Part shown: positions 1-24,336 of the stretch, piece by piece
Layout: the number at the start of each line of letters is the position of its first letter
Position numbering within the stretch: the stretch's first letter is position 1
Assembly (NCBI GenBank): GCA_945912085.1
Contig: CAMEBJ010000002.1
Span: 1-24,336, forward strand
DNA length: 24,336 nucleotides
Reading direction: 5' to 3'
From: an uncultured Bacteroidales bacterium
GTDB lineage: Bacteria > Bacteroidota > Bacteroidia > Bacteroidales > UBA932
The notes under the pieces: generated by a model
Told to the model about the DNA's origin: nothing
Databases searched by the model: none
Seen by the model: only the letters and a program-made list of their open reading frames with translations
Made by a program: the position numbers and the translations under genes

Positions 1-1073
1 AGGAATATGCAGGAAGACACCGTGCAATTCCTGATTGCTCCGGATGAAACCGCCTCATTTCCAGCCTCGGGGCCAATCACCACACCCCTGGCAAAATCTG
101 CCCAAATGAGGCAGCCTTCAATCCGGATGTTTTCAAGGTCGGACATAGGCTTTGCATTGTGCCTGACCTTCAGGGTAATGCAGTCATCGTAGCAGCGGAT
201 AAAGCAGTCTTTCAGGAGCACGTCCCGGGAGCAGACCACATCGATCCCGTCTCCGTTCAGAATCCAGTTGACCAGGTTGATATTCTCTATTCTGACATCG
301 GACATATTGTAAACGGAAACCGTCCAGCTAGGGGAATCTATAATGGTAACATCCTCTATGACAAGATTCTTCCTTCCCGGACTGCGGTCCTTGTTGCACT
401 CAATCAGTAGTTCGCCACTGGCCCACTGGGTACCTGTGTGAGGAAGTTCCGCTCCGGTGATGATGCCGTGGCCTGCGATTCTGCAGTCGCTGCCCTGAAT
501 CTCGACAGCGGCATAAAGCACTGCACCATAGTCCACATACAGGGTCTGCCCCTGCTTGAGAATCACCTTCCCTTCGCGATGCTCACCCGGACCGTAGTAA
601 ATCACGGAAGGGTCGTCCGGAGAAGGTTTCTTCCTGTCGGGAAGGTTGCAGATCAGAAACAGGTTCGTTGCACGGTCGTCGTCAAATTCGACCGAAATCT
701 TTCTGTGGGAATATTCATCAATCACAAATTCAACCGTGTGGTTGTCAAGCACTTCTGGAGCGACACCGTAGAGAGTAGGCCTTATGCGGACATCTGAAAA
801 GGCATCCCTGCGCCTGACCCTGAATCTGAGAGGAAAATCCCCGGGACATTCCACAAGGGCTATGGACATCGTGTCTCTCAAGGCCTTGGAATTGTTCCAG
901 TCATTCCAGATTTCCGGATGATGAGCCGCAGAATCGGAACACAAGGCTTTATATACCGTTACGGGAACAAAGCCGTCTCCGCGGTCAACTTCGACGACAT
1001 AGTCGGTCCCACGGCCGGAGGCCGCGGACAAAGCTAAGGGCAGAAGCAGGAGAAGGGTCAGAATCTTCCTCAT
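1..1073 (-). CDS. GH28-like right-handed beta-helix hydrolase, C-terminus cut by window edge
   Basis: A partial gene whose first 357 codons are present; the C-terminus lies beyond position 1. It opens with a signal peptide (MRKILTLLLLLPLALSA) without a lipobox, so a periplasmic or secreted product is expected. An N-terminal beta-sandwich-like module carries the motif IWNDWNNSK (residues 55-63), followed by a typical beta-helix entry (VIYYGPG, then QTLYVDYGAV). Putative catalytic acids are D275 (NGDGID) and D296/D297 (YDDC), 21 residues apart, the spacing of the GH28 Asp/Asp-Asp triad. The GH28 Gly-His-Gly position reads A-R-G (R329), so the family histidine is absent. It is a clear paralogue of the protein at 2896-5139 but lacks that protein's 265-residue N-terminal extension. 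Its ATG overlaps the GH20 stop in an ATGA arrangement, so translation is probably coupled. GH49-like enzymes are an alternative family; substrate unknown. Confidence 0.85.
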   Translation of the reverse strand, partial: MRKILTLLLLLPLALSAASGRGTDYVVEVDRGDGFVPVTVYKALCSDSAAHHPEIWNDWNNSKALRDTMSIALVECPGDFPLRFRVRRRDAFSDVRIRPTLYGVAPEVLDNHTVEFVIDEYSHRKISVEFDDDRATNLFLICNLPDRKKPSPDDPSVIYYGPGEHREGKVILKQGQTLYVDYGAVLYAAVEIQGSDCRIAGHGIITGAELPHTGTQWASGELLIECNKDRSPGRKNLVIEDVTIIDSPSWTVSVYNMSDVRIENINLVNWILNGDGIDVVCSRDVLLKDCFIRCYDDCITLKVRHNAKPMSDLENIRIEGCLIWADFARGVVIGPEAGNEAVSSGAIRNCTVSSCIF

Positions 1074-8516: not shown

Positions 8517-11315
8517 TTAGAATGTGAATTTCAGTCCGAAGGAGAATGACCTCACGGAAGGATAACCAAGGGATATGGACTCAGGGTCGAAAATCTTGAT
8601 TCTGTCAATAGAGAAGAGATTCAGTCCCCGGAAGAAAATGGAAATCTCACGGAATTTCGCCCTCATCAATGCCTCTGACTGGAATCCGTAGTAAACATAG
8701 AGCGAGCGGAGCTTGAACCAGTCGGACTTTTCAACCCAGAAATCACTTCCTCCCTGGAAGTTGTTCCCGTTGCTCAGGGTTGTCAGACGTGGATAGCGGG
8801 CATTCTGGTTTTCCGGAGTCCAGCGGTTGTTGTAATAGTGCATCGAGATGTTCTTGTCATCATTGTAGAGCGGCCAGTAAACCGACCCGGTTGTGAGCTG
8901 GACATACTGGTTGATGCGTCCGTCGAAAGTGGCCTCGAAACCCAGACCCTTCCATTTGAATCCCAACTGGATACCGTAAACGGCAGAAGGAAGGGAGTGG
9001 TATTGATCCATATACTGCTTGTCATTCACGTCAATCACACCGTCCCCGCTGATGTCCTTGTAGCGGATGTCTCCCGGCCTCACTCCTTTTCCTTCGAGGG
9101 TGCTTTGAGGGTATTTCGGAAGCAGATTGCCATTGGAATCGAAATCGGAAGTGCTGTAGAGGCCGTCGCTGGTGTAGAGGGTCAAGGCCGTGATGGAGTG
9201 ACCGGTCCGGTACATATAGGAGTAAGGATGGTATTCCTCACCCATTTCAAGAATCTTGTCCTTAGTGTAGGAAATGCAGCCTCCTATGTGCCAGGAGAAA
9301 TCTCCGACCGTCTGGCTCCAGCTTGCGGAAAGTTCGCCTCCCCAGTTCAGGGTCTCTCCGTTGAAAATATACGGCGAGCCGAGGCCGAGCAATGAGGAAT
9401 ATACTCCGGAGGATGACACCTTCAGATGTTTCCTGTGGTTGCGGAAGACATCAATGCTTACCTCAAGACCTCCGAAGGCCCGAAGATCGATTCCCACATT
9501 GGCCTTGAAGTCCGTTTCCGGGAGAGCCCCGTAAGAAGGGTAGGAACCCTGCATCATTCCGGATTCGGACGAGCCGACCATTGAAACAAATCCACCGCCA
9601 CTGCCGTTGTTCGGAGTGTCCAGACCGTAACCCAGCCTTGCATCGTAACCGGTGATTCCATAGCTTGCGCGAAGTTTCAGAAGGTCGAGTCCGGAAGCAT
9701 CCTTGAGGAAAGACTCGTTCGAGATGATCCAGGCTGCGGAAACGGCAGGATAGAAACGATATTTCTTTCCTTTCTCGAGGAAAGCACTGCCTGAGCAGGT
9801 CGCCACTACATCCACGAGATATCTGTGGTCGTAATCATATCCTGCCCTGAGGATGAAATCATTGTAGGAAAACACATTGCCCTTTCCCCTGTTCTTCCAT
9901 CTGTCCATCGACCAGATGAAGGAAGCCTTCACGCCATTCTTGCCGAAGGTCCTGTCGTAGTCAGCCATTGCCGTTACAGAGAAATTGTTGTTGACACTGC
10001 TTCCGCCTGCAAGAGCAGATGAGAAGGACAGGTCGGTGTCATTGCCATATTCGGTCCAGTTGAGTTTCTGAACGTCTCCATTATCGTCCCGGCCGTAGGC
10101 CATCATTACATACTTGTAGGTCTTTGACCTGTTGTCATTGATTATCGCACTGTTGTCGAATGCGCCCTTGAGTGTCAGGGAGAGTCCCTGTGTCAGCATC
10201 GACAGGTCCTGGATGATCGAGAGATCAGCAAGAAGGGTTCTCTGGAGAGAAACCGAATATCCACTCTGGGTGTAGGTCGAAAGAGGATTCGCAAAGAGTT
10301 CCGACCGTGCCCAGAGACCGTCCTCGGACTTGAGAGGGAAAGCGATTGCCGGAGTGGTGTAGATTCCCGAGACATAGGTTCCCGCGTAAGGCTGCTGTGT
10401 CTGAGAGAGACGACCCATCATATTGATCCTGATTCGGGTGGTCCTTGTCATTTCCGCTTCAAGGTTGGTCCTGAGTTTGAGACAGGAATTCTGGTACTGG
10501 GTGCTGTAGCCATCATTCATCCTTGTGTTGTTGAACAGGCCATCGTAGCCGTTGTAGTTGGCGAGCACATAGTAGCGGAAGCGTTTCTCCCTTCCCTCCA
10601 GGGAAACGTTCAGGTCGTGGACGAATGCCGTCTTCCTGAGAACTTCCTTCTTCCAGTCCACCGAAGGGAAGAGGGAACTGCCCTGTGCTATTCCCTTAAG
10701 GTCGGCAGCAGTGTATCTCGGCTGAAGGCCGTCATTGGCAAGTGCCTCATTAACTGCATTGGCATAGGTAAGGCCGTCCGCCATCTGAGGCATTGCAAAC
10801 GGGGTCTGAACGCCGAAACTGTATTCGGCATTGATTCTCATTCCCGGAGTATGTCCCCTCTTGGTCGTGATGACAACCACTCCGTCCGCTCCCCTGTTTC
10901 CGTAGATTGCGATTGCGGCGGCATCCTTGAGAACCGTGATGTTCTCTACCTCTTCTGCTCCGATGAACGCCGGAGCTCTCTCGACACCGTCAACTATGTA
11001 CATCACATTGTTGCCCGAGAAGGAGCCCCTTCCCCTGACAAACATTGACTGTCCGTTGTCCGGAAGATTTCCTCCGTTTGACACAATCACTCCGGGAAGC
11101 ATTCCGGATATGCTTGCAAGTGCCTGTCTTCCACGGACAATCTGAAGGGCCTGGACCCCTATGCTGGAAGCGCTGACTGTTGAAAGGTCCGTGCTGACAG
11201 ACTTGTCGTAACCCAGGTAAAGGACGGTGTCCCTGATCGGGTTTATTTCTCGTGCATAGGAGAGCGAGGCTGACAGCAACAGGAGAGCCAGGGTAATGAA
11301 TATCTGTTTTTTCAT
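8517..11315 (-). CDS. SusC-family TonB-dependent transporter lacking the N-terminal CarboxypepD_reg-like domain (pair 2)
   Basis: A 932-residue outer-membrane barrel that imports glycan fragments using TonB energy. After the signal peptide (cleavage near LSYA-RE) there are only about ten residues before a TonB-box-like stretch, DTVLYLGY (28-35). The plug domain follows at once (ISGMLPGVIV, FVRGRGSF, MYIVDGVER, ITVLKDAAAIAIYGNRGADG). The roughly 80-residue carboxypeptidase-regulatory-like domain that precedes the plug in most SusC proteins, and in SusC1 here, is missing. The barrel is complete to the terminal aromatic strand SFGLKFTF. The start is sound: ATG 21 bp after the SusD1 stop, followed by a good signal peptide, so the short N-terminus is not an annotation error. 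It pairs with SusD2, 10 bp downstream. Confidence 0.95.
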   Translation of the reverse strand: MKKQIFITLALLLLSASLSYAREINPIRDTVLYLGYDKSVSTDLSTVSASSIGVQALQIVRGRQALASISGMLPGVIVSNGGNLPDNGQSMFVRGRGSFSGNNVMYIVDGVERAPAFIGAEEVENITVLKDAAAIAIYGNRGADGVVVITTKRGHTPGMRINAEYSFGVQTPFAMPQMADGLTYANAVNEALANDGLQPRYTAADLKGIAQGSSLFPSVDWKKEVLRKTAFVHDLNVSLEGREKRFRYYVLANYNGYDGLFNNTRMNDGYSTQYQNSCLKLRTNLEAEMTRTTRIRINMMGRLSQTQQPYAGTYVSGIYTTPAIAFPLKSEDGLWARSELFANPLSTYTQSGYSVSLQRTLLADLSIIQDLSMLTQGLSLTLKGAFDNSAIINDNRSKTYKYVMMAYGRDDNGDVQKLNWTEYGNDTDLSFSSALAGGSSVNNNFSVTAMADYDRTFGKNGVKASFIWSMDRWKNRGKGNVFSYNDFILRAGYDYDHRYLVDVVATCSGSAFLEKGKKYRFYPAVSAAWIISNESFLKDASGLDLLKLRASYGITGYDARLGYGLDTPNNGSGGGFVSMVGSSESGMMQGSYPSYGALPETDFKANVGIDLRAFGGLEVSIDVFRNHRKHLKVSSSGVYSSLLGLGSPYIFNGETLNWGGELSASWSQTVGDFSWHIGGCISYTKDKILEMGEEYHPYSYMYRTGHSITALTLYTSDGLYSTSDFDSNGNLLPKYPQSTLEGKGVRPGDIRYKDISGDGVIDVNDKQYMDQYHSLPSAVYGIQLGFKWKGLGFEATFDGRINQYVQLTTGSVYWPLYNDDKNISMHYYNNRWTPENQNARYPRLTTLSNGNNFQGGSDFWVEKSDWFKLRSLYVYYGFQSEALMRAKFREISIFFRGLNLFSIDRIKIFDPESISLGYPSVRSFSFGLKFTF

Positions 11316-11336: not shown

Positions 11337-13289
11337 CTACCATCCCGGGTTCTGGACCAGTCCGTATCCCTTGTTGATCTCATCGGACGGGAACGCGCTC
11401 AGGAACCATTTCGGGCTGAATTTATCCTGCCAAATTCTGCCCTGGTCCATCTTTGACGGGTCTGAATAGGTGAGAACAAGGTTGCCCTCCTCGAAAGAAC
11501 CACTCTTGCGGGTTATCTGGATTCCGTAGAGAATCTTGCGCATCAGGTCCTCCCTCTTCCAGAAAGCGATGTCGAACCAGCGGACTTCTTCGAAACAGAA
11601 CTCCCTCGCCCTTTCATCTAAAATCTCCTCGCGAAGGTATTTGTCACCTTGGAGGTTGCATTCAGGATAGTCCGGAAGGGTTTGCCCCGAATGAAGCCTG
11701 GCGGCATTCGGAAGGGTCATTTCCGGAAGGCCCACCCTTGTGCGGGTCTTGTTGAGCCAGGAAAGGGCTTCCTGGGAACGGCCAAGCTCGTTCAGAGCCT
11801 CGGCGTACATCAGATAGAGTTCAGGAAGACGGATATAGGCCGAATTGGTGGCCTTGTTGAGAAACTCGTCATTGTAATCCCAAAGGAACTTCCTGATAAT
11901 GAAGCCTGTGGCACATTTCGGATTGGCTGAACTTCCGTGTTCCAAACCGTCAACCCAGGTCTCGGCACAGCGGGTCCTGTAACGGTCCCCGGCTATGAGT
12001 ACTGTTTCGTACAGACGGGGATCCTTGCCTGTGAAAGGATTGTCCGCAAGAGTACCCTCGTGACCGTGGTCTGCGAGCCATTTTCTGTAATCGGAAGGTG
12101 TGCCGTCGGCAGCGGTAAACATATCCACGAAATTCAGGGTTACGCAGCCTCCGCCATATCCCCTTCCTGCCTGTCCCTGGTCGGTCAGACCGAAATACAT
12201 TCTGTGGTAGGTGTTGTAATAGGTAGGTATGGCCCTACCGGTGTGGATGATGATTTCCGGGGATTCCCTATCAGCGTAGCAGGTGCTGAAAGCCTGACGG
12301 TAGCCCTCGGCGTCATTTGTCTGAGGCATCACCAACCTGTAGGCATCACCGTTTTCCGTGTTCTTCTTGAAGAAATCCTCACAGGCATCAGCCACAGCCT
12401 GCCAGTTCTCCTGAGTGTAGGAACCGAGCCAGGTCATCAGTCCGGGATCCTCCTTTACGGAAGCTTTGTTGGCTGCCGTCGGTTCCTGTGCCTGAAGGTA
12501 AGGAGTCGATGCATTGAACAGCGGACGGGCCGCAAGTTGAAGCACTCTTGCCTTCAGTGCGAGTGCTCCGGCAGCGGTCATTCTTCCGTTGTCCGAATCT
12601 GCGACAGTCCACGGAAGCTCTTTCGCTGCCTGCTCGCACATATTCACAATAAAATCCACACACTGTCTTACCGTTCTGCGGGAATAGTCCGCAGTCATTT
12701 CATTTTCCGGGGTGGCATAGTCATCCAGAATCGGCACTCCTCCGAAATGACGGAGCATCTCGTGCATCTGAAGGGCTATGATCATCCTTGCCTCACCTTT
12801 GCGAACTGTTTTCTCCTCATCAGTCATATCGGGGACCCTGTCCACATTGTTGATGAAAATCCATGCGCGCCTGATTCCTGTCCAAGCGCCTTCCTGATCC
12901 GGAAGAAATCCGAATTTTCCGTACCCCGCATTCTCCGCCTCGGCATTGTAGGTGCCTGCATAGTAGGTCTTGATAACACCTCCCCAGGTGCAGTGGCTCT
13001 GCATCAGGTCGGTCATTGTGTCAAGATTGTCCCAGCCGATTTTGTTACCTCCGTTTTGGAATTCGTACCGGCCGTTGTTGGAATGGACTGTCAGACAGGT
13101 GCGGAGCGAGGCGTATGCACCGACGAGTTCTCTCTCGGCATACAACTTCGACGAAAAGATCTGCTCAAGGGTCATATCCGCTCCAGGCGCCTTCTCGAGA
13201 AAGGCGTTGCCGAATTTGAGGTCGCTGCAGGAAGAAGCGGCAAAGAGCGCGGCAGCAGCCATTATATTTGTAAATATCTTTTTCATCAT
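11337..13289 (-). CDS. SusD/RagB-family outer-membrane glycan-binding lipoprotein (pair 1)
   Basis: A 650-residue SPII lipoprotein (LFAASSC, Cys21 counting from the first of two consecutive ATGs). It carries the SusD hallmarks: an N-terminal 'SDLKFGNAFLEKAPG' opening, TPR-like helices (YAEALNELG), a 'DERAREFCFEEVRWFDIAFW' type segment, and the terminal NPGW. It is about 100 residues longer than SusD2, so it has extra loops that could shape ligand binding. The first ATG shares one base with the SusC1 stop (TGATG); the second ATG three bases on (13286) is an equally possible start. The overlap points to coupled translation with SusC1, as expected for partners in one outer-membrane complex. Confidence 0.96.
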   Translation of the reverse strand: MMKKIFTNIMAAAALFAASSCSDLKFGNAFLEKAPGADMTLEQIFSSKLYAERELVGAYASLRTCLTVHSNNGRYEFQNGGNKIGWDNLDTMTDLMQSHCTWGGVIKTYYAGTYNAEAENAGYGKFGFLPDQEGAWTGIRRAWIFINNVDRVPDMTDEEKTVRKGEARMIIALQMHEMLRHFGGVPILDDYATPENEMTADYSRRTVRQCVDFIVNMCEQAAKELPWTVADSDNGRMTAAGALALKARVLQLAARPLFNASTPYLQAQEPTAANKASVKEDPGLMTWLGSYTQENWQAVADACEDFFKKNTENGDAYRLVMPQTNDAEGYRQAFSTCYADRESPEIIIHTGRAIPTYYNTYHRMYFGLTDQGQAGRGYGGGCVTLNFVDMFTAADGTPSDYRKWLADHGHEGTLADNPFTGKDPRLYETVLIAGDRYRTRCAETWVDGLEHGSSANPKCATGFIIRKFLWDYNDEFLNKATNSAYIRLPELYLMYAEALNELGRSQEALSWLNKTRTRVGLPEMTLPNAARLHSGQTLPDYPECNLQGDKYLREEILDERAREFCFEEVRWFDIAFWKREDLMRKILYGIQITRKSGSFEEGNLVLTYSDPSKMDQGRIWQDKFSPKWFLSAFPSDEINKGYGLVQNPGW

Positions 13290-16200
13290 CAGAACGTTAT
13301 ATTAATGCCGAAGTTGAAAATCCTGTTGTTTGGATAGGTGTAGGTCCCGTCTCCGGTGCTGCCTTCGGGGTCAATGTCAAACTGCTCGAGTTCAGAGAAC
13401 AGGGTCAGAAGGTTGTAACCGCTCAGGAAGACTTTGAAAGATGAGATTCCGGCTTTCTTGAGGGCCTTGTCCTTGAATGTGTAGGCGACCTCGGCCGTCT
13501 TGAGCCTCAGATAGGAACCATCCATCAGCCAGAGGTCGGAATCTCTGGTGTACTGGGTCTTGTTCACGAATGTAAGTCTCGGAAAACGGGCATTGTCCAT
13601 ATTCTCCTCGGTCCACCTGCCGTCAGCCAGATAGGTCAGAAGGCTTCGGGAGTTCTGGGTTCCGAAAGGAGTGCGGTACTCGCCCGAAAGCACCCTCGAT
13701 GCGTGCAGGGCACCGGTCCACTGCATAGAAACCGACAATCCCTTCCAGCTGAGTCCCGCCACAAGACCGAAGACATAGTCAGGACGGCCGGAGTAACCGT
13801 AAAAGGTACAGTCGTTCCCGTCAATCTTCCCGTCATTGTTCAAATCCTTGAACAGAGGGTCACCCGGTTTGTTTGTTCCGGGCTGCTCCGGAAGAAGGTA
13901 CCTGCCTTCGTCGTCTTTAAGCAGATTTCCGTCGGAGTCGAAATCGGACGGACGGTAGAACCTGTCGAACACAAGACCGTAGCTCTGTCCGGTAGGGCGT
14001 CCCGTCTGGGCCATATACCACTCGTTCGGAGTCACCTCATCCATAAAGATGATCTTGTTTTTGGAATACGACATATTCGCAGTTATCCAGTAGCCTACCT
14101 TGTGACTCGGGCGCGTGTCCCTCCATCCCAGAGAGAGTTCATATCCCCAATTGTCCACGATTCCCAGGTTCATAAGAGGGAGCTTGTAGTCTGTCACCGA
14201 CGGGGATGTCCTCCTTTTGGAGAGAATGTCCTTACGGTGTTCAAAGAAGAGATCACCGTTGAAAGACAGGCGGTTGTCAAACATTTTCAAATCAATTCCG
14301 TAATTCTGCTTGTAGGCCTTCTCCCAGGTCACGTCCTCATTGCCCTGGCGGCTCTCGACCGCATCCCGCAGCATCCCGATGGTCGGATTGATGCCGAACT
14401 GCCAACTGCCATAGGCTCCATCACCAACAGCACTGTGGTTGCCGTTCCAGCCTCCAAGGTAGAGGAAACGCTCTCCGGAATATTTGTCATTGCCGACAAC
14501 TCCGTACGAAGCCCTGATTTTCAGGAAATCAATCACCTTGGCCTTGCTCATCCACTTCTCGGACGAAACCACCCATCCGGCCGAAACGGAAGGGAAGAAA
14601 CCGTAACGCTTGCCGGGAAGGAAGTTCTCGGAACCGTTGTAGCCGGCATTGAGGTCAAGCAAATATTTCTGTTTGTAGGCATATGTAGCCCTCCAGACAT
14701 ATCCCACATATCCCGTTGGTATGTCGGAATATGAGGAAGGATAATATTTCTTGCTCTGGTTGTAGAGGAAAAGACCCGAGACAGCGTGGTCTCCGAAAGT
14801 GCGGTTGTAATTGATTGATCCCTCGAGATACCAGTCCCTGGCACGGCCGGAAGAAGTCTCGGCATAGGAAAGAGGCTCATGGAGGTTGCTGATGCCCTCG
14901 GTCCGGTAAACGATAGTGTTGTCAAAACGAGGGTCGGAAATATCCATTCCGGGCTGTGTGACTGAGCCCTTGTAAATCGGAATCCAGGTACTGTCGGTAC
15001 CCGTCGGAGAACGGAGGATTGTCACGCTGTGGGTAGTATTGTAGGCTCCCTTGACCTGTACGCTCAAGCCCTTTGTGACAAAATCAAGATTCTGCTCGAT
15101 AGCCAGGTCGAGATTCAGGACATTCTGGTTAGTGGTGTAAAGACCCCAGTTGTAGTAATAGTCGTAAGGAGACTTGGTTTCTCCGATCGGGATGTAGGGA
15201 TTGAAGCCGTTCTGGATGAGTTTCCCGTCCACGAAGCCAGGACTTGAGAAAGGCACGCACCACATCACGGTCCTCCAGAGGTCCTCGTTCTGCGGTTCCT
15301 TGCGGCTGCCCAGACGGCCTCCGATGTTGAGTTTGAGCAAGGTCGTCTTAGTGAGGTTCACATCCACATTGGTCCTGTAGTTGAACCTGTCGTAGCGGAA
15401 GTTCGAATTGAAGGTCTCATAATTCTGCTTCAGGACACCGTCCTGGTGCATATAGCCCAATGAAACAAAGTAGCGGAATCTTTTCCCGCCACCGGACAGG
15501 GTGACATTGTGCTGTGTCTGCCAGGAGAAATCCTTGAAGACTTCCTTCTGCCAGTTGACATTCGGGAACATTATCGGCTCGTCGCCCTGGCGGAATCTCT
15601 CGATCACATAATCGGAGAAGATGAGGTTCTTGTCGGAGACTCCGTCGGATTTCTGAGCTTCGGTGAAGAGCGTTGCGTAGGTGTAACTGTCCACACAGGT
15701 AAGTTTGCGCAACGCCTGGGTCAGACCGAACTGGCTGGAAACCGAAATGCTCATCTTTTCCTCGGCACCGCGCCTTGTGGTCACGAGGATGACTCCATTG
15801 GCACCACGAACTCCGAACACTGCCGTCGAAGAGGCATCTTTCAGAACTGTGATACTCTCGATTTCATTAGGGTCCATCTGGAAAAACGACCTCTCGACTC
15901 CGTCCACCAGAATGAGAGGGCTGGAAGCCGTATTGGACAGCGAACCGGTTCCACGCACGAAAATCTGAGGGTCATCCGCACCCGGCTGTCCGGAAGTCTG
16001 GACGGTGGAAATTCCGGTGACGGCTCCGGCAAGAGCGCTTGCTGCACTTCCCGCTGGAGATTTCAGAAGTTCGCTCGTGCCGATTGAAGTGATGGCTCCG
16101 GTGATGGAGAGCTTACTCTGTTTTCCGTAGGCGATGACCTGAACTTCATCAAGAGTCTGGACATCCGGTACGAGAGCAATTTTGCCCATCGATGCGGCAG

Positions 16201-16480
16201 CCTTTACTTCAAGGGTCTCGTAACCCATCAGGGAAATCTCAAGAACTGAACCGGCAGGTACCTTGAGGCTGAACCGGCCGTCTAAATCAGTGATGACGTG
16301 GTCTGTTGAAGACTTGGCTTTCAGAAGCACGACCGCACCGATGAGAGGCTCCCCTGTAGAGGAATCCACGACCGTTCCGGTTGCCGTCACGGTCTGGGCG
16401 GCTGCATTGAAAGAGCCGAAGAAAATGACAAGCGCTGAAAGAAGAATCAGCAGCGAGTCTTTGTAAAATCCGTTTGACAT
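13289..16480 (-). CDS. SusC-family TonB-dependent transporter, canonical (pair 1)
   Basis: A 1063-residue glycan importer. From the ATG at 16480 it has a normal signal peptide ending NAAAQ (residues 25-29), a CarboxypepD_reg-like domain (about 31-110, with GTVVDSSTGEPLIGA), a TonB-box-like DEVQVIAYG, a plug (GAVTGISTVQ, FVRGTGSL, LILVDGVER, ITVLKDASSTAVFGVRGANG), and a 22-strand-type barrel ending FGINITF. The frame is open ten codons further upstream to a TTG at 16510, but the predicted -7 box covers 16508-16515, so that TTG would lie upstream of the RNA start; the ATG at 16480 also gives the better signal peptide. It is the first gene of the long operon and lies about 97 bp after the HTCS stop. 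Confidence 0.96.
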   Translation of the reverse strand: MSNGFYKDSLLILLSALVIFFGSFNAAAQTVTATGTVVDSSTGEPLIGAVVLLKAKSSTDHVITDLDGRFSLKVPAGSVLEISLMGYETLEVKAAASMGKIALVPDVQTLDEVQVIAYGKQSKLSITGAITSIGTSELLKSPAGSAASALAGAVTGISTVQTSGQPGADDPQIFVRGTGSLSNTASSPLILVDGVERSFFQMDPNEIESITVLKDASSTAVFGVRGANGVILVTTRRGAEEKMSISVSSQFGLTQALRKLTCVDSYTYATLFTEAQKSDGVSDKNLIFSDYVIERFRQGDEPIMFPNVNWQKEVFKDFSWQTQHNVTLSGGGKRFRYFVSLGYMHQDGVLKQNYETFNSNFRYDRFNYRTNVDVNLTKTTLLKLNIGGRLGSRKEPQNEDLWRTVMWCVPFSSPGFVDGKLIQNGFNPYIPIGETKSPYDYYYNWGLYTTNQNVLNLDLAIEQNLDFVTKGLSVQVKGAYNTTHSVTILRSPTGTDSTWIPIYKGSVTQPGMDISDPRFDNTIVYRTEGISNLHEPLSYAETSSGRARDWYLEGSINYNRTFGDHAVSGLFLYNQSKKYYPSSYSDIPTGYVGYVWRATYAYKQKYLLDLNAGYNGSENFLPGKRYGFFPSVSAGWVVSSEKWMSKAKVIDFLKIRASYGVVGNDKYSGERFLYLGGWNGNHSAVGDGAYGSWQFGINPTIGMLRDAVESRQGNEDVTWEKAYKQNYGIDLKMFDNRLSFNGDLFFEHRKDILSKRRTSPSVTDYKLPLMNLGIVDNWGYELSLGWRDTRPSHKVGYWITANMSYSKNKIIFMDEVTPNEWYMAQTGRPTGQSYGLVFDRFYRPSDFDSDGNLLKDDEGRYLLPEQPGTNKPGDPLFKDLNNDGKIDGNDCTFYGYSGRPDYVFGLVAGLSWKGLSVSMQWTGALHASRVLSGEYRTPFGTQNSRSLLTYLADGRWTEENMDNARFPRLTFVNKTQYTRDSDLWLMDGSYLRLKTAEVAYTFKDKALKKAGISSFKVFLSGYNLLTLFSELEQFDIDPEGSTGDGTYTYPNNRIFNFGINITF

Positions 16481-16495
16481 TAGCCTTGTTATTAA

Positions 16496-16521
16496 CTGAG
16501 GTTTCGGCAAATTTAACTCAG
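16496..16521. repeat. Short inverted repeat flanking the SusC1 -7 box
   Basis: CTGAG at 16496-16500 and CTCAG at 16517-16521 form a 5-bp inverted repeat around a 16-bp spacer that contains the predicted -7 box. It could be a regulator site or chance; arms this short are common. Confidence 0.25.
16508..16515 (-). promoter_or_regulatory. Predicted -7 box of the SusC1-led operon
   Basis: On the minus strand this reads TAAATTTG, a perfect match to the Bacteroides -7 consensus TAnnTTTG. It lies 27 bp before the SusC1 ATG at 16480, giving a leader of about 20 nt. No clear -33 TTTG is found at normal spacing, which would suit a promoter that needs an activator such as the adjacent HTCS. The intergenic DNA it sits in (16481-16576) holds no other recognised element apart from the short repeat. 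Confidence 0.55.
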
Positions 16522-16576: not shown

Positions 16577-19500
16577 CTACCCTCGAATGCTGTCCAGATA
16601 AGCTTTCGGCGTCATCCCATACTTCTTCTTGAAGCAGGCGGAGAAATATTTCGGGTCGTTGAATCCGACTGAAAAAGCAATGTCGGAAATCCTCACGTCA
16701 TCCTTGTTTTCGGTCAATGCCTTGTAGGCGACGGTCATCCTGACATTGTTGATGAATGCTCCCGGCGACATCCCTGTAAGGGCCTTGAGTTTCTCCGTCA
16801 GGACAGTCTTGGATGTTCCCATTGAAGAGACGAACTCCGGAAGGTCGAAATCACAGTCCTTGTAGTGGGCATTTACGCAGTCAATGGCTCTTCTCAGGAA
16901 AGTCTCATCCATTGAAGTGTACTCCATATTGTCCACATCCAGGACAATCTGCTTCCGGAAGTCAGCTCCCTTCCGTTCAATCTTCCTCAGACACTCGACA
17001 ATCTGGGCATAGAGAAGTTTCATCGAGAACGGCTTGCAGACATACCCGTCGGTTCCAGCCTGCCAGCCTTCAATCTGGCTTTCCTCGGCACTTTTTGCGG
17101 TCAGAAGGATGACAGGGATGTGGCAGTACTCAAACCTGGACTTGATTGTCCTGCACAGTTCCAACCCGTCCATCTGAGGCATCATCACATCGGAAACCAC
17201 GAGCGAGACATTCGAAGTCTCCAGTATTTCAAGGGCTTCCTTCCCGTCCCTTGCCGTCAGCACATTGAAATGCTCCGCAAGCATACTCTTCACCAGATAG
17301 CAGAGTTCCTGATTGTCATCCACAAAAAGAATGGTGTAGTCATTCGACAGTCCCTCGGGACGCTCCAGAACCACTGTCGCAGTATTCAGGACAGGACAAC
17401 TGTCCTGGGAGGTGTCCTTTCCGATTTCCTCCCCTTCGTATGCCTCCTCTGAGATCGGCAGCCGGACAGAGAAGACATTGCCTTGTTCCGGACTGCTTGA
17501 CACAGTGATTTCACCTTTGTGAAGAGTGACAAGATCCTTGACCAGAGACAGTCCTATACCGGTTCCGATGGTATTGTGTTTTCTGTAGTCACCTTCGTAG
17601 AATCTCTTGAAAAGCCCCTTGATGGTCTTCTCGGACATAGTATCCCCCGTGTTCACCACGTCAATCATCACCATCCCGTCAGCCAGGGATGAAACCTTCA
17701 CGCTTATGTCCCCGCCCTGCGGAGTGTATTTCGCGGCATTTGAAAGCAGGTTGTACACTATTTTGTCAACCTTGTCCGTGTCATACCAGCCCTCGATCTG
17801 GTCCGGGGAACTCGTGAAGGAAAGGTTCTGGGCCTTGCCGGCAATCAGAGGGCTGAAAGCCTCCACACAAGAAGATATGAACTTCGTGAGATTTCCCCTG
17901 GAGACGGACAGTTTCAGATTCCCGCTCTCGACCTTTCTGAACTCAAGCATCTGCTGAAGGAGTCTGGTCAGCCTGGTTGTGTTGACAGACAGGACTTTGG
18001 GCAGGTCCGGATTCCATTTTCCGCCTGTCAGGCTCTCCACCGATGCATTGATGATGCTCAGAGGGGTCATCAGTTCGTGGGTGACATTGGTGTAGAACTG
18101 GAGTTTCAGGTGATTGAGTTCCTCAGCCTTCTGTTTCTCAATCCTGCTGAGCCTCACAAGTTCACGCGCCTTGATGCGGTCGTATGTGTATCTCCAGATT
18201 CCGTAGGCCAGAGCAGCAGAAACAAGCAAATATGCCATAATAGCCCAGAATGACAGGAGTGGATGGCGCAACACCTTGATTCTCAGCGTACGTTCGTGGG
18301 TTTTGTCACGGCCGAGGGTCTTCAGGCGGAAGATATAGTTCCCCGGAGGTACGTTTTCATAACTTGCAGTGTGTCTCCCCTCGGCATCAATCACCTCTTT
18401 CCGGTCATACCCTTCGAGGATGTAGGAATATATGTCCTGCTTTCCGGCGCCCTTGTTCAGAAGGGCGAAACTTATTGAAAACGAATGCACCGTGTGGTCT
18501 ATCCTGACCATGTCGGCATAGTTGATATCCTTTTCGCAGACTTTCCTGCGCTGTTTTGGGGACATCGACCTCAAAGAAGTCTCTCCGAGACGGAAATCAG
18601 TCAGGCAGAGATTCTCCCTCACGGGGGAAGACGGGGTCTGGCTGCGCAGCGGGAAATAGACGATTCCCTTGGAAGAACCGGCGGCAACCGTCCCGTCAGG
18701 CAGATTCACAAGAGTGCTGGCATTGAATGACATCGAGGCATCGTGATCCGATAGTGAAATATAGTCCACGTCTCCGATTCCGCCACCTTCGGAGTATGTG
18801 AAGGAGACAGCGGCATCGGAAGTAGTCACCCACAGTCGGGAAGTGATGTCCGAGGACATTCCTGTAATACCTTTATTATATAGGGCGGAGATATTGTTGA
18901 TCTGACTGAACTCCCCTTTCTTCCTGTCGTAGAGATACAGCCCGTCAAAAGCGGACCCTGCCCAGACATTCGAGGCCGGATCCACGAAAAGACAGGAAAC
19001 ATTGTCAGACTCTCCAAGGGACCATCTGACCAGACTGCCGTCGGAAGGGGAAAGACGATACACTCCGTAGTAGTTGGTAGCAATCCAGACTGAGCCGTCA
19101 CGAGCCGACTTGAGGTCGGTCACAATCACATCCGAAAGAGGGTCCAGGGCAGCATCCGGCAGATAATCCGCAATTGAAAAAACCTTGTTCCCGGGTGTCA
19201 TCACGAAAACGCCTTTCCTTGTTCCGATCCAGAGGTTCGATGCATTGTCTTCAGCGATTGCAGTCACTCCGAGATGGGCAAATTCCGGATAATCCTCTGC
19301 AACAACCCTCCGGGCAGCGTTGCGGGATGAGGGGTCCAGAAGCCATAGTCCCTGACTGTAAGTCCCGAAACAGATTTCCGAAGTACTGCGCCTGCGCGAT
19401 ATTACATCAACGGCCGAAGTGTAGGGGAAATCCCTGAAAGCCGGATATTTCTCGTAAGAGAGGAAACTGCCGTCAAAGGGGTCGTAAAGCACCATTCCGA

Positions 19501-20641
19501 AACCTATGATTCCAAGCCAGAGACAACCGTCAGGCATAGGAAATATACTGCGTACCGAATTGGTCCTGAGAGACTTCCTGATGTTTTCAAGGGCATCGGT
19601 CCTGAAGTCGGCATCGGGACTTTCCACCTTGAAGACCCCCCCGCAGAACATACTCAGCCAGATGTTCCCGTCGTCTGTCCTGAGGATAGAGCTTACCTCA
19701 TTGTAAGGCAGGTCGTGACCGGGTTCTCCCGGAGCGTAGTTGACGAAAGAGAGAGGATCCGAAATGTCTTCGAGAATGCTCAGGCCGCTTCTTGAAGCCA
19801 CCATCAGTCTCCCCTCGGAATCCTGTCCGATGTCGTAGATGACGTCATCCAGCAGGGAGCCGGCCTGCGGGGTGTGGGAATACACTGTGCAGGAAAGATT
19901 CCCTGGACCATGAGGAGGATCGATCCGGAGCAGCCCCTTTCCCCAAGTGCCGACCCAGAGGCGGCCTTTGAGATCCTTGTAGGCCACATTCGACCAGTAA
20001 AGAGGATCTTCTGAATATTTACGGAATGAGAATGTCTTCGTGTCATATCTGTAAAGCCCGTGCTCACAGCAGCACACCCAGAGATATCCCTCCGCATCCT
20101 CGCAGATTGAGGACACCCATTCAATGGGATTGCCATCCATCAGGATTGGGGTGAATTCACCTGTGGAAGCCTCGATGTGCCACAGTCCGGAACTTCCCCC
20201 TACCCACACATCCCTCCCGTTGGAGCAGCGAATGTCCGAGGCATTGAGCGTTCCCATCCGTGGGTCTGGTCCTGCAAAGGAAATCTGACCATTGTTCTTG
20301 TCCAGGGTGTAAACGCCTTTTTCCGACGCTATCCAGAGCTTGTTCCCCTCCGATTCGCAAACCACGTTTATGTGGCAGTCAAACTTCTCCCCATCCGATT
20401 CATTCATTCCAAACACCACCGTCGAAGACCCGTCATACCTGACAAGGCCGCTGTAGGTCGGAATCCAGACATATCCTTCACTGTCACTAAACAGCACCCT
20501 TACAGCATTGGTAGGCAAGAGCTTGGATGGAATACTCCGGAAAGAAAGAACCTCGGAGGAGAAGGCATTGATGCAAGACAGAACAGTCAGTGCCACAGTC
20601 AGCAGGGAACGCAGGAGATTCATTGCAGATATTCGTTTCAT
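16577..20641 (-). CDS. Hybrid two-component system sensor/regulator (HTCS) of the PUL
   Basis: A 1354-residue one-protein signalling system. Order of parts: signal sequence (1-29); a periplasmic double beta-propeller of about fourteen Reg_prop repeats (about 35-680; for example VWIPTYSGLVRYD, LWVGTWGKGLLRID, VWAGSAFDGLYLYD); a Y_Y_Y domain (about 716-785); one transmembrane helix (795-818); a histidine kinase with H-box His855 (THELMTPL), an N-box near 965 (NLLSNAAKYTP) and a G-box near 1024 (GTGIGLSLV); a receiver domain (1102-1215) with phospho-acceptor D1151 (SDVMMP) and K-P-F; and an AraC-type DNA-binding domain (about 1260-1352). All catalytic parts look intact. The H-box has Met where most histidine kinases have Arg (HELRTP). 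It presumably binds a glycan fragment in the periplasm and activates the SusC1 operon. It is co-directional with, and upstream of, that operon. Confidence 0.97.
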   Translation of the reverse strand: MKRISAMNLLRSLLTVALTVLSCINAFSSEVLSFRSIPSKLLPTNAVRVLFSDSEGYVWIPTYSGLVRYDGSSTVVFGMNESDGEKFDCHINVVCESEGNKLWIASEKGVYTLDKNNGQISFAGPDPRMGTLNASDIRCSNGRDVWVGGSSGLWHIEASTGEFTPILMDGNPIEWVSSICEDAEGYLWVCCCEHGLYRYDTKTFSFRKYSEDPLYWSNVAYKDLKGRLWVGTWGKGLLRIDPPHGPGNLSCTVYSHTPQAGSLLDDVIYDIGQDSEGRLMVASRSGLSILEDISDPLSFVNYAPGEPGHDLPYNEVSSILRTDDGNIWLSMFCGGVFKVESPDADFRTDALENIRKSLRTNSVRSIFPMPDGCLWLGIIGFGMVLYDPFDGSFLSYEKYPAFRDFPYTSAVDVISRRRSTSEICFGTYSQGLWLLDPSSRNAARRVVAEDYPEFAHLGVTAIAEDNASNLWIGTRKGVFVMTPGNKVFSIADYLPDAALDPLSDVIVTDLKSARDGSVWIATNYYGVYRLSPSDGSLVRWSLGESDNVSCLFVDPASNVWAGSAFDGLYLYDRKKGEFSQINNISALYNKGITGMSSDITSRLWVTTSDAAVSFTYSEGGGIGDVDYISLSDHDASMSFNASTLVNLPDGTVAAGSSKGIVYFPLRSQTPSSPVRENLCLTDFRLGETSLRSMSPKQRRKVCEKDINYADMVRIDHTVHSFSISFALLNKGAGKQDIYSYILEGYDRKEVIDAEGRHTASYENVPPGNYIFRLKTLGRDKTHERTLRIKVLRHPLLSFWAIMAYLLVSAALAYGIWRYTYDRIKARELVRLSRIEKQKAEELNHLKLQFYTNVTHELMTPLSIINASVESLTGGKWNPDLPKVLSVNTTRLTRLLQQMLEFRKVESGNLKLSVSRGNLTKFISSCVEAFSPLIAGKAQNLSFTSSPDQIEGWYDTDKVDKIVYNLLSNAAKYTPQGGDISVKVSSLADGMVMIDVVNTGDTMSEKTIKGLFKRFYEGDYRKHNTIGTGIGLSLVKDLVTLHKGEITVSSSPEQGNVFSVRLPISEEAYEGEEIGKDTSQDSCPVLNTATVVLERPEGLSNDYTILFVDDNQELCYLVKSMLAEHFNVLTARDGKEALEILETSNVSLVVSDVMMPQMDGLELCRTIKSRFEYCHIPVILLTAKSAEESQIEGWQAGTDGYVCKPFSMKLLYAQIVECLRKIERKGADFRKQIVLDVDNMEYTSMDETFLRRAIDCVNAHYKDCDFDLPEFVSSMGTSKTVLTEKLKALTGMSPGAFINNVRMTVAYKALTENKDDVRISDIAFSVGFNDPKYFSACFKKKYGMTPKAYLDSIRG

Positions 20642-20788: not shown

Positions 20789-23700
20789 ATGAAACATATA
20801 AAACTGATAACCATCATCTTTCTCATCCTGTTCTCCCTCCTTTCCAAGGGAGAGGACAGAATCGGAGTACTTCAAATCAACGTCTGGCAGGAATGTACGT
20901 GCGTCCCGGGAGGATTGGACGCCCTTGTGGACAACATCATCGAAAGCAGGGCCGACGTGGTCTTTATGCAGGAAATAAGGAATTACGAAGGGCGGAGGTT
21001 CATTCCGCGACTGATTGAGGCTCTCGCCCTGAGGGGCGTGACATTCTACGGAGAGGACAGCACCTGTGACAGCGGAGTCATCAGCAGGTTCCCACTCGTG
21101 CAGGACGGAAGGAAATGGGAAGGCTGCGGGTCCGTCCAGAGAGTCAGAATCAATGCCGGAGGGCATCCGGTGGCACTATATTCAGCTCATCTGGACTATA
21201 AGAACTATGCCTGCTACTATCCGAGGGGGTACGACGGGAACACCTGGAAGAAGATACCTGCTCCCGAGACCTCCGTGGAAAGGATTCTGGAAATGAACCG
21301 GGCTTCCGGAAGGGACGACACCATCAGGGATTTCATCAGACTCAGCAGAGCCGACATCGACGAGGGCATCGACGTGATTCTGGCAGGGGATTTCAACGAG
21401 CCGTCGCATCTGGACTGGACTGAGCAGACAGCCTCCCTTTGGGACCACAATGGAGCAGTCATCCCTTGGGATTGCTCCACAATGCTTTACGAAGGCGGTT
21501 TTGAGGATTCCTTCCGGGTGGTGAATCCTGACCCTGTGTCCTCCCCGGGCTTCACCTTCCCGAGCGACAACTCCGACTGTAATCCTATGAAACTGACCTG
21601 GGCCCCTGAAAGCGACGAGAGGGACAGAATCGATTTCATCTATTACTACGGGGACGGGTCCCTCAAACCCGTGGACAGCAAGGTATTCGGACCTGCAGGT
21701 TCGATTGTCCGGGGGAAAAGGACCGTGGAGGAGAATCTTTCTGACATCATCCCCGTGACAGGCAAGTGGCCGACAGACCACAAGGCAGTCCTCACCACAT
21801 TCGAGTTCACCCCGGTGGCACGAATCTTCACTCCCTCCATCCCGACCATAGTGGACCGGGAGCACAACATCATCTGCGAAATCTGCCTGGAGTCGTTTTC
21901 CGGGAAGGACGTACTGGAGAGTGTCGGGGTCACCGTCTCGGGAATTGACCCATCGGCCATCCGGAATGCCAGGCTGATGTACACGGGAACCAGTTCTGCA
22001 ATATACTCCCGGACCACATCCTACATACTTAAGGACCAGTTCCGCAGAATCGGCGCGGGGCAGGACACCTGGAGACATCCTGCCTTTGCTGTTCAGACAG
22101 CATCCTGCAAGGCGGGGAAAGACGGGAGAATCGTCCTGAAACCGGGGAAAAGCCTTGTCAGGGACAGAAATTATTTTTACCTGAGTCTTGAGGTGGACTC
22201 GCGGAAAGTGGACCTGAGCGGGACTTTCGGGGTGACAGTGGAGTCCGTGGAACTCAGATGCCCGGTGCAGGACGGGAGCGGCTCTTTACTTCGTCAGGCC
22301 AGAATCGTATCCGAAGGTTCCCTTGAGGGTCACCGGTTCGGAATCGCACTGCGCAACCACAAGGATGACAATGTCTTCTCCTACAGAATCCCCGGACTGG
22401 TCACCACTCCGAAAGGGACATTGATTGCAGTGTACGACATCAGGCACACCTCCGGGAACGACCTTCAGGACAACATTGACGTTGGTGCCAGCCGGAGTAC
22501 CGACGGGGGACGGACCTGGGAGAAGATGCGCACAATCATCGATATGGGTGAATGGGGAGGACTTCCGCAGGGACAGAACGGTTGCGGAGATCCTTCAGTG
22601 CTTGTGGACAGCAACACAGGAACGATTTTCGTCTGCGCTCTGTGGACGCACGGCCTTGGCAACAGGCACGCATTCTCATTTGCCTCAGAAGGCTACGATC
22701 CGATTTCGACCGGACAGATGGTTCTGGTGAAAAGCACCGACGACGGAAAGACCTGGAGCAAGCCTGTCAACATCACCCGTCAGGTAAAGCGTCCTGATTG
22801 GAGGATGACCCTCCAGGGGCCGGGACGGGGAATCACGATGCAGGACGGGACTCTGGTTTTCCCGATGCAGTGCCTTGACAGCAAAGGGATTCCAAGTTCA
22901 GGAATAATGTACAGCAAAGACGGGGGCGAAACCTGGCACTGCCACTCCAGAGCCTGTGAACGCACCACCGAGGCCCAGGTCGCCGAGATTGCACCGGGAG
23001 TACTGATGCTGAACTGCAGGAACGACCGTCGTCAGGGCAGGGTCGTCTGCGTGACTGATGACCTGGGGAAAACCTGGAAGACCCACCCTTCATCAGGAAG
23101 CCTCGTGGAACCCGTCTGTATGGCGGGGCTGCTGAATATTCCGGCTTCCGAAAACATCTACGGAAGGGATATCCTCCTGTTCTCAAATCCGGTTTCCGCC
23201 CCTGGAAAAGGCAGGAACAACATCTGCATAAAGGCGAGCCTCGATGCCGGGATGACCTGGAATCCGCTTGACTGTCTGCTCCTGGACCAGGAGGAAGGCT
23301 GGGGATATTCCTGCCTCACCTCCATCGGGAATGACAAGGTGGGAATCCTCTATGAAGGCAGCACCTCGCACCTTGTCTTCCAGCAGGTCAGGCTGAGTGA
23401 CATTGTGAAAAGCATTCCCGCTCCCTCAGGGCTGTCCGTCGGGGAAATCTACTCCGACGATATGATTTTCCAGAGGGACGTACCTCTTGAAATTTCAGGA
23501 AGGACTGCACCGGGGCTTGAAGTGAAGGTCACCCTGGGGTCATCGACAAGGAAATGCCGTTCGGCACAGGATGGAACATGGAGGGTCCGTATGCCGGCAC
23601 TCAAGGCCGGGACAGGAATACCGTTCACCGTGACTGACGGACGGGACACCCTGAGTTTCAGCAATGTGGCAGCCGGAGAGGTCTGGCTCTGCTCAGGGCA

Positions 23701-24336
23701 GTCGAATATGGCTTTTGAGTTGAAGGGAGCCGACACCTTCAGCAAGGAAGGACTGGATGACCCGATGCTGAGGTTCTACGACATGAAAAGCCATCTGAAA
23801 ACCTGGGGGCTGGTCTGGAGCGAAGAGGATGCGGGGAAGGTTGCACAGGGAAAGTATTACGGCAGGACACGATGGAGCTGCTCGTCTGAGAAGACTGCCA
23901 GGGAATTTTCAGCAGTGGGATATTACTTTGGCAAAATGCTCAGGGATAGTCTGAATGTACCTGTGGGGCTGATCTGCAATGCCGTCGGCGGGACGACCAC
24001 CGAGTCATTCATCAGCCGCAGTGCTCTGGAGAAGGTTCTTCCGGGATTCTGTGACGGATGGTTTGAGGATGAATCCGTGATGGAATGGGCAAAGGAAAGA
24101 GCCCGGGAGAATATGTCAGCCTTCAAAGGAGGGTATATACAGCATCCTTTTATGCCGGCATATCTCTTTGAAAACGGCATCCGTCCACTGGAGAGATTTC
24201 CAATCAAAGGGGCAATCTGGTACCAGGGAGAGTCGAACGCGGAGAACATCCCGCAGCACGAAATCCTTTTCAGGACCCTTGTGGACTGCTGGAGGCAGAC
24301 CTGGGATAATCCCGACCTGCCTTTCTACTTCGTCCA
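20789..24336 (+). CDS. Secreted fusion: EEP phosphoesterase - GH33 sialidase - sialate O-acetylesterase (C-terminus cut by window edge)
   Basis: One frame without a stop for 1182 codons; the end lies outside the window. A signal peptide (1-20, no lipobox) sends it to the periplasm or outside. Residues about 22-340 are an endonuclease/exonuclease/phosphatase fold with its key residues: E62 (MQE), D201/N203 (GDFN), D279-x-x-D282 (DRIDF), D330/H331 (TDH). Residues about 345-510 look like the sialidase N-terminal accessory domain. Residues 515-875 are a GH33 sialidase: YRIP (532-535), five Asp-boxes (570-577, 649-656, 709-716, 756-763, 817-824) and GYSC with Tyr840, the likely nucleophile. From about 885 begins a sialate O-acetylesterase: GQSN with catalytic Ser972, an N-A-V-G-G-T block near 1065, and WYQGESN (1144-1150); its C-terminal Asp-x-x-His lies beyond the window. 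It would release and de-acetylate sialic acids; the EEP substrate is unknown. Confidence 0.93.
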   Translation, partial: MKHIKLITIIFLILFSLLSKGEDRIGVLQINVWQECTCVPGGLDALVDNIIESRADVVFMQEIRNYEGRRFIPRLIEALALRGVTFYGEDSTCDSGVISRFPLVQDGRKWEGCGSVQRVRINAGGHPVALYSAHLDYKNYACYYPRGYDGNTWKKIPAPETSVERILEMNRASGRDDTIRDFIRLSRADIDEGIDVILAGDFNEPSHLDWTEQTASLWDHNGAVIPWDCSTMLYEGGFEDSFRVVNPDPVSSPGFTFPSDNSDCNPMKLTWAPESDERDRIDFIYYYGDGSLKPVDSKVFGPAGSIVRGKRTVEENLSDIIPVTGKWPTDHKAVLTTFEFTPVARIFTPSIPTIVDREHNIICEICLESFSGKDVLESVGVTVSGIDPSAIRNARLMYTGTSSAIYSRTTSYILKDQFRRIGAGQDTWRHPAFAVQTASCKAGKDGRIVLKPGKSLVRDRNYFYLSLEVDSRKVDLSGTFGVTVESVELRCPVQDGSGSLLRQARIVSEGSLEGHRFGIALRNHKDDNVFSYRIPGLVTTPKGTLIAVYDIRHTSGNDLQDNIDVGASRSTDGGRTWEKMRTIIDMGEWGGLPQGQNGCGDPSVLVDSNTGTIFVCALWTHGLGNRHAFSFASEGYDPISTGQMVLVKSTDDGKTWSKPVNITRQVKRPDWRMTLQGPGRGITMQDGTLVFPMQCLDSKGIPSSGIMYSKDGGETWHCHSRACERTTEAQVAEIAPGVLMLNCRNDRRQGRVVCVTDDLGKTWKTHPSSGSLVEPVCMAGLLNIPASENIYGRDILLFSNPVSAPGKGRNNICIKASLDAGMTWNPLDCLLLDQEEGWGYSCLTSIGNDKVGILYEGSTSHLVFQQVRLSDIVKSIPAPSGLSVGEIYSDDMIFQRDVPLEISGRTAPGLEVKVTLGSSTRKCRSAQDGTWRVRMPALKAGTGIPFTVTDGRDTLSFSNVAAGEVWLCSGQSNMAFELKGADTFSKEGLDDPMLRFYDMKSHLKTWGLVWSEEDAGKVAQGKYYGRTRWSCSSEKTAREFSAVGYYFGKMLRDSLNVPVGLICNAVGGTTTESFISRSALEKVLPGFCDGWFEDESVMEWAKERARENMSAFKGGYIQHPFMPAYLFENGIRPLERFPIKGAIWYQGESNAENIPQHEILFRTLVDCWRQTWDNPDLPFYFV

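Follow-up and report, generated by a model that had tools for sequence, protein, structure and literature searches.

A single open reading frame (ORF) at the right-hand edge of a 24,336-nucleotide stretch from an uncultured Bacteroidales bacterium of the gut, one of the Cryptobacteroides group (assembly GCA_945912085.1, contig CAMEBJ010000002.1, positions 1 to 24,336; hereafter the window) joins an EEP domain, a GH33 sialidase and a SASA esterase in one secreted-looking chain. Comparison with its relatives shows that the EEP and SASA domains share descent as fusion partners and that GH33 was lost in one lineage. Selection appears, from the trees and domain arrangements described below, to keep EEP and SASA together while GH33 comes and goes. 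A first-pass annotation, made by a model from the sequence alone, had regarded the EEP domain as an odd addition to a sialidase-esterase core; the relatives reverse this picture, since they keep EEP-SASA and lose GH33 or split the parts over two genes. We give a probability of about 0.48 to the reading that the product is secreted and, as an enzyme of a polysaccharide utilization locus (PUL), strips phosphoester, acetyl ester and sialic acid caps from one complex glycan. Sialidase-esterase fusions and PULs are already known. The new part is the EEP member, a third module predicted to be a phosphoester hydrolase and kept with the esterase even after the sialidase is lost.

The fusion gene

The frame occupies 20789 to 24334 of the plus strand, with 1182 codons and no stop, as had been claimed at first pass, and exits at the window edge, which is also the end of the contig (C2). 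Its parts are as follows.

20789..20851, plus strand: signal-peptide-like N-terminus, residues 1-21 (MKHIKLITIIFLILFSLLSKG), recognised by eye from the translation
20852..21823, plus strand: EEP domain (PF03372), residues 22-345, from Pfam and alignments
21824..23416, plus strand: BNR_assoc_N and GH33 sialidase domain, residues 346-876, from Pfam and motif mapping
23426..24334, plus strand: SASA esterase domain, first ~303 residues, extending past the contig, from Pfam and motifs

Domain calls were made with Pfam at curated cut-offs, and all three domains exceed them, in keeping with the earlier description of a secreted-looking chain in which each of the three is intact. Exo_endo_phos (PF03372) scores 41.2 bits against a cut-off of 24.5 (residues 40-331), BNR_assoc_N (PF14873) 34.4 against 25 (residues 348-489), BNR_3 and BNR_2 93.8 and 86.3 against 27 and 31.4 (spanning residues 534-848), and SASA 43.2 against 24.8, with its best stretch at 964-1075. 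By Pfam, then, the sialidase and O-acetylesterase domains share one chain, and its signal-peptide-like N-terminus suggests that the protein is secreted.

The EEP domain has N31, E62, H134, D201, N203, D282, D330 and H331, which we take to be catalytic; N31 and H134 had not been named at first pass. The motif proposed at first pass stands for E62, D201, D282, D330 and H331 but not for D279, which is Glu in several of 36 aligned EEP proteins (chosen by us, ~50% identical to the window); D276 and D282 are invariant across that alignment. The esterase part carries two motifs expected of SASA, S972, presumably the nucleophile, within GQSNM and WYQGES at 1144, both verified by script. The five Asp-boxes of the GH33 part (at 570, 649, 709, 756 and 817) and Y840, likewise proposed earlier, were also verified by script. 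This part is of the NanH type, with E-values under 1e-100 to nine PDB sequences, and its catalytic set was mapped, by motif and spacing on alignments to four NanH-type PDB sequences, as R533, D558, E728, R744, R809 and Y840. In the T. forsythia NanH, the available text of PMC9472817 gives R212, R423 and R487 as the Arg triad, Y518 and E407 as the Tyr/Glu pair, and D237 as the Asp acid/base, each of which has its counterpart in the set just given. Between the window and a second genome that carries the triple, G640, the ratio of nonsynonymous to synonymous substitution (dN/dS) is 0.17 for EEP, 0.11 for GH33 and 0.12 for SASA, with dS saturated. That the EEP domain is a degenerate passenger is disfavoured by its residue conservation and its dN/dS.

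The missing C-terminus is probably held by another contig of the same assembly, C106, whose first 68 bases match the last 68 of the window at 65 positions. C106 carries the esterase on in frame for 190 residues, after which a GH3 gene starts, assigned because it is 85% identical to the GH3, itself identified with Pfam, that follows the fusion gene in a related locus (L041, see below). The contig may come from a related strain, because the overlap has three mismatches and C106 diverges further along from P0002, the largest cluster of full-length relatives. Beyond the window end, both P0002 and C106, which may thus represent another strain, contain SDLGHPTDVHP, a motif that would supply the C-terminal Asp and His of the SASA triad.

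Distribution of the triple architecture

Full-length triples fall into four 90% clusters of 1323-1373 amino acids, with 2535 member sequences together: P0002 (1365 amino acids; 2265 members; 97% identical; with a 77,789-base contig), P0003 (1373 amino acids; 68 members), P0004 (1350 amino acids; 201 members) and P0005 (1323 amino acids; 1 member, named Candidatus Cryptobacteroides). Cut-off pieces are also seen, for instance P0006 and P0097, the latter of which, although labelled 'alone' in our EEP tree, extends into the N-terminal domain of the sialidase and probably represents a triple cut short. The protein database search behind these figures scored only the 7993 candidates sharing most words (7996 in the GH33-SASA search), and in genome searches no more than two candidates from each genome were scored. 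The source genome and G640, in which the triple is 69% identical and likewise cut by a contig end, were the two carriers among 400 congeneric genomes (a draw that includes the source genome) and again among 398 family genomes, while an order-level sample of 295 genomes returned the source genome only. The third match of the genus search, in G903, is a GH33-SASA gene. The threshold was reached by none of the 150 congeneric genomes with at least 90% completeness and at most 5% contamination. The triple is rare by species; its absence elsewhere is weak evidence, because the known carriers are incomplete genomes.

An assembly join, a frameshift or a chimeric gene could mimic such a fusion. The contig ends inside the gene, the overlap with C106 has its three mismatches, and in P0096 (318 amino acids; 28 member sequences; a 95% relative) the frame breaks within EEP just past DRIDFI, through sequencing error or in a broken allele. 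Against this, the architecture recurs at full length in all four clusters, including P0002 with its 77,789-base contig, and in a second genome, so it is no artefact of frame or assembly, and we regard the chance of one as negligible. Like the first-pass annotation, we know of no characterised triple, and none was found in the searches made. The open-access literature yielded no description of EEP with a sialidase, whether or not together with PULs, and none of EEP with SusD and a phosphodiesterase, although papers that write the family name with slashes may have escaped the search.

EEP and SASA as the linked pair

Related loci show the domains in other arrangements. To illustrate, the fusion gene of L041, from the Bacteroidales metagenome-assembled genome SUG646, is EEP-SASA, and no GH33 match occurs in the locus; its SusD1 and SusC1 are both 79% identical to those of the window and its hybrid two-component regulator (HTCS) 57%. 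A further EEP-SASA gene lies in L164 (genome G688). In G903 (L162:8629-13939), a GH88-EEP gene stands opposite the genes for GH20 and HTCS (53% and 47% identical to the window locus), and 22 bases on follows a GH33-SASA gene with its own start. G640 keeps the gene order of the window over the stretch fetched, with identities of 85% for SusC1, 84% for SusD1, 72% for HTCS and 79% for SusC2.

Trees of the two outer domains agree. The EEP tree, from a quick search, used 53 of 219 EEP rows, chosen by us by architecture, and places the triple, EEP-SASA and GH88-EEP rows in one clade of 13 (SH-aLRT 97). The SASA tree of 25 domains groups all 12 fused rows in a single clade with support 100/99. Three subclades are common to both trees: the triples; L041 with P0007 and P0008; and G903 with P0009/L164. 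The GH33 of G903 joins that of the triples at 90/90, a node that is not starred and whose alternative is not rejected (p-AU 0.27).

P0007 and P0008 retain a trace of the third domain. Exactly between EEP and SASA, at about residues 359-463 and 350-451, respectively, each has a remnant of the last GH33 blade, ~105 residues that include an Asp-box-like stretch (E 1e-14 and 7e-11, the search having covered four sequences). The stretch bearing R533, D558, E728 and R744 is absent, so the relic should not work as a sialidase. Because it remains, the EEP-SASA genes of P0007 and P0008 are triples that lost the sialidase; late insertion of GH33 between EEP and SASA is disfavoured by the same relic. No relic turned up in P0009/L164 or L041, where the loss that we infer comes from the trees. 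The matching subclades, together with the relic, make EEP-SASA the linked core.

The EEP family

Used alone as a query, the EEP domain brings up 2628 proteins of the database with E no higher than 0.001, out of 4953 candidates. This is a large, secreted-looking and uncharacterised family of the Bacteroidota. From precomputed or scanned Pfam, its fusion partners are GH20, GH29, GH97, GH3, GH43, GH88, GH123, M60, M61, beta-lactamase-like, LamG, GH36-like and calcineurin-type phosphoesterase domains. The first-pass annotation saw in EEP an oddity of sialic acid release; as a recurrent partner of many glycan enzymes without a sialidase, the domain is no special oddity of that process. Individual fusions with glycan enzymes or a phosphoesterase are P0021, P0022, P0019, P0024, P0026, P0037, P0045, L155:3697-6693 and L156:3012-6104, a set in which the partners are GH20, GH29, GH97, GH3, M60, GH123, metallophosphoesterase and GH36-like.

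Conservation was scored at nine positions, the eight catalytic-type residues and R146. All nine are kept in 60 of 62 homologues at least 35% identical to the EEP domain; one exception, P0020, differs at R146 only, and the other, P0080, has an alignment that covers part of the domain. The 36 aligned rows share 52 invariant columns. Of these, 44 are not among the eight catalytic-type positions, for example R146, W153, R175, W210, H220, W227, W271, R278 and R280. These invariant non-catalytic columns suggest a specific pocket.

Of 585 EEP relatives found, the loci of 80 were kept. A neighbour census, restricted to ORFs of at least 150 amino acids and with seeds picked from the same loci, covered 78 of these (L035 and L072 were dropped, their EEP ORF being unrecognised). 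In 16 of the 78, EEP is immediately preceded by a SusD gene of the same strand. Five loci have a calcineurin-type phosphoesterase no more than two genes from EEP, and none has one further away; an alkaline phosphatase is as near in two, so that one or the other is this close in 7/78. A Bacteroides operon (L043:5565-11170) holds GDPD, Fe-ADH_2, an MFS transporter, a HAD phosphatase and EEP, and looks like one for glycerophosphodiester use; we take the Fe-ADH_2 to be a glycerol-1-phosphate dehydrogenase and the transporter to be of the GlpT type. L039 and L040 share this order, and no GDPD ORF of at least 150 amino acids was seen there.

The surrounding locus

A Pfam scan identifies the window as a PUL, with SusC/SusD pairs, a regulator and carbohydrate-active enzymes together. 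The neighbours of the fusion gene are listed below.

16577..20641, minus strand: HTCS, divergent from the fusion gene (Pfam)
13289..16510, minus strand: SusC-like TonB-dependent receptor 1 (Pfam)
11337..13289, minus strand: SusD-like lipoprotein 1 (Pfam)
8517..11315, minus strand: SusC-like receptor 2, with Plug as its sole Pfam domain
6854..8506, minus strand: SusD-like lipoprotein 2 (Pfam)
5153..6811, minus strand: 552-amino-acid lipoprotein-like protein, no Pfam or NCBIfam match
2896..5139, minus strand: GH28-like protein with a GH49N Ig-like stretch (Pfam; best PDB E 5.6e-06)
1070..2890, minus strand: GH20 beta-hexosaminidase (Pfam)
3..1085, minus strand: another GH28-like protein, incomplete at the window edge (Pfam)

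From its position, the 552-amino-acid protein is possibly a surface glycan-binding protein. Both GH28-like proteins are only distant kin of pectin enzymes and lie in a locus with a sialidase and a GH20.

Proposed function and its alternatives

In the mechanism that we propose, the EEP domain would hydrolyse a phosphoester on the glycan, more likely a phosphodiester, a substrate suggested by the company the gene keeps; SASA would remove acetyl esters and GH33 terminal sialic acid. The GH20, GH3 and GH28-like enzymes of the locus would then degrade the exposed chain, in a step order that is likewise conjectural, and the two SusCD pairs would import the product. An additional phosphodiester or phosphomonoester bond in the substrate, as suggested at first pass, is the leading reading, one that we infer.

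Several observations weigh against this proposal. We know of no activity or structure for any member of the EEP family. The best PDB match of the 36-row EEP profile is an exodeoxyribonuclease at E 0.001, with CCR4-type nucleases at E 0.05; two exodeoxyribonuclease III models are weakly matched by 10 (TIGR00195) and 7 of the 36 members, and one member matches a cytolethal-distending-toxin-B model (E 0.0067). Such distant matches lean, if anything, toward a nuclease. Of the 32 more distant EEP homologues, 3 keep every scored position; the other 29 deviate somewhere, for the most part at R146 or H134. Alkaline phosphatase also occurs further from EEP in two loci, and the neighbour counts are not independent tests, because the seeds came from those neighbours. 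No phosphatase was found among the nine neighbouring window ORFs scanned. GH33 or SASA relatives occur in 2/80 EEP loci, both as fused genes; EEP therefore has no general tie to sialic acid, and a role as a sialic-acid-specific accessory is rejected for the family at large. In Flavobacterium, a mutant of the EEP lipoprotein Fjoh_0074, which may or may not be of the same subfamily as the EEP of the window, kept its phosphomonoesterase activity unchanged, according to the available part of PMC8812569.

The most direct alternative, that EEP is a DNase or RNase which thins mucus or harvests nucleic acid, would make the coupling one of shared location and not of a shared molecule. It draws on the exodeoxyribonuclease, CCR4 and TIGR00195 matches just given; these are, however, superfamily-level only. 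The ExoIII/CCR4/DNase I branch has in common with the window domain the PF03372 family and the catalytic residue set, with roles as we assume them, but sequence similarity is at E 0.001 or worse, no close relation to a characterised ExoIII/DNase I-type nuclease was found, and the window's own EEP matches no NCBIfam model. Since the 44 invariant non-catalytic columns suggest a specific pocket, and the family is fused to glycosidases, an esterase and a phosphoesterase, we consider a nuclease unlikely. Alternatively, EEP might be a phosphorus-scavenging phosphodiesterase acting on lipid head groups, glycerophosphodiesters or teichoic-acid-like polymers, and fused because the polymer has both sugars and phosphate. 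SusC-SusD-EEP loci with a metallophosphoesterase or alkaline phosphatase, and the L043 operon, fit such a role, as do the phosphate utilisation systems (PusCD) of Flavobacterium, which are described in the available text of PMC8115612 as SusCD-like systems co-localised with phosphomono- and phosphodiesterases. Stand-alone members of the EEP family sit in the same way beside SusCD-like genes. A system of this kind would be expected to respond to phosphate depletion. The window locus, in contrast, has carbohydrate-active enzymes and no phosphatase among the ORFs scanned, and its regulator is an HTCS and not an extracytoplasmic function sigma/anti-sigma pair; we consider scavenging unlikely here.

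A further possibility concerns the esterase. If SASA were a general carbohydrate acetylesterase, the target could be some other acetylated and phosphorylated glycan, such as a bacterial polysaccharide or one of glycosaminoglycan type, with sialic acid an occasional cap. The L041 locus lacks GH33 in spite of SusC and SusD proteins 79% identical to those of the window, an absence that applies to the locus only; the GH3 that it shares at 85% with the C106 fragment has beta-xylosidases as its nearest PDB entries; for the GH88-EEP protein of G903 the closest entry is a GH88, followed by unsaturated glucuronyl hydrolases; and the PDB entry that SASA matches best is named 'Carbohydrate esterase FI8', while 'Sialate O-acetylesterase' scores almost the same. 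On the other side, stand-alone SASA proteins 48-50% identical to the window adjoin NanH-type sialidases in genomes G325 and G343, as expected of sialate O-acetylesterases, and we rate this alternative as somewhat unlikely.

Returning to a glycan-directed phosphoesterase, one may extend the proposal from the window to the family, in that EEP proteins would be unrecognised glycan phosphoesterases, widely used by gut Bacteroidota to take phosphate-linked decorations off host-type glycans, much as sulfatases take off sulfate. This we put forward as a possibility, though a doubtful one. Because the GH3 of L041 is nearest to beta-xylosidases and a GH88 lies in the G903 locus, the target may be a phosphorylated and sialylated proteoglycan-type structure, for example the xylose-phosphate linkage region, a known piece of proteoglycan chemistry; so specific a guess is very improbable. 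If the wider proposal were true, phosphate esters on gut glycans would be a nutrient barrier, selecting for fusions with GH20, GH29, GH88, GH97, GH123, GH3, SASA and M60. Action of EEP on glycans would imply that phosphate-linked decorations are encountered by gut bacteria, and the fusion partners show where to look for them; the models of mucin and glycosaminoglycan degradation known to us do not include such decorations.

Comparison with known sialidase-esterase systems

The best counterpart among characterised proteins, SiaBb1 of B. bifidum, is actinobacterial and is not known to belong to a SusCD locus. Like the window protein, it combines GH33 with an O-acetylesterase domain of the SGNH type in a single chain, and both activities are reported in the available parts of PMC10017367 and PMC10298468, which bears out the first-pass view that pairing a sialidase with an O-acetylesterase is sensible; unlike the window protein, SiaBb1 has no EEP domain named for it in those parts. 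Bacteroidota operons of the NanH/EstA type, EstA being a name used in the available text of PMC10017367, resemble the window in their NanH-type GH33. In G325 and G343, which are of this type, SASA, GH33 and a GH20 relative are neighbouring separate genes, whereas the window has its SASA and GH33 in one chain, and no EEP gene was seen in the two stretches. SusC relatives and SusD-like proteins (SusD by eye) lie near these SASA-sialidase pairs.

Fusions of GH33 with SASA are common in the protein database, several of them under Planctomycetota names. Among the 120 matches listed, out of 774 proteins, GH33 (BNR) and SASA occur together in 92, and EEP occurs only in P0002-P0005. A sulfatase (PF00884) is added to GH33-SASA in 25 of the 120 and might be viewed as a parallel three-enzyme fusion, with the third ester remover directed at sulfate. 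Examples are P0228, P0233, P0234 and P0236-P0238, some of which have Planctomycetota names.

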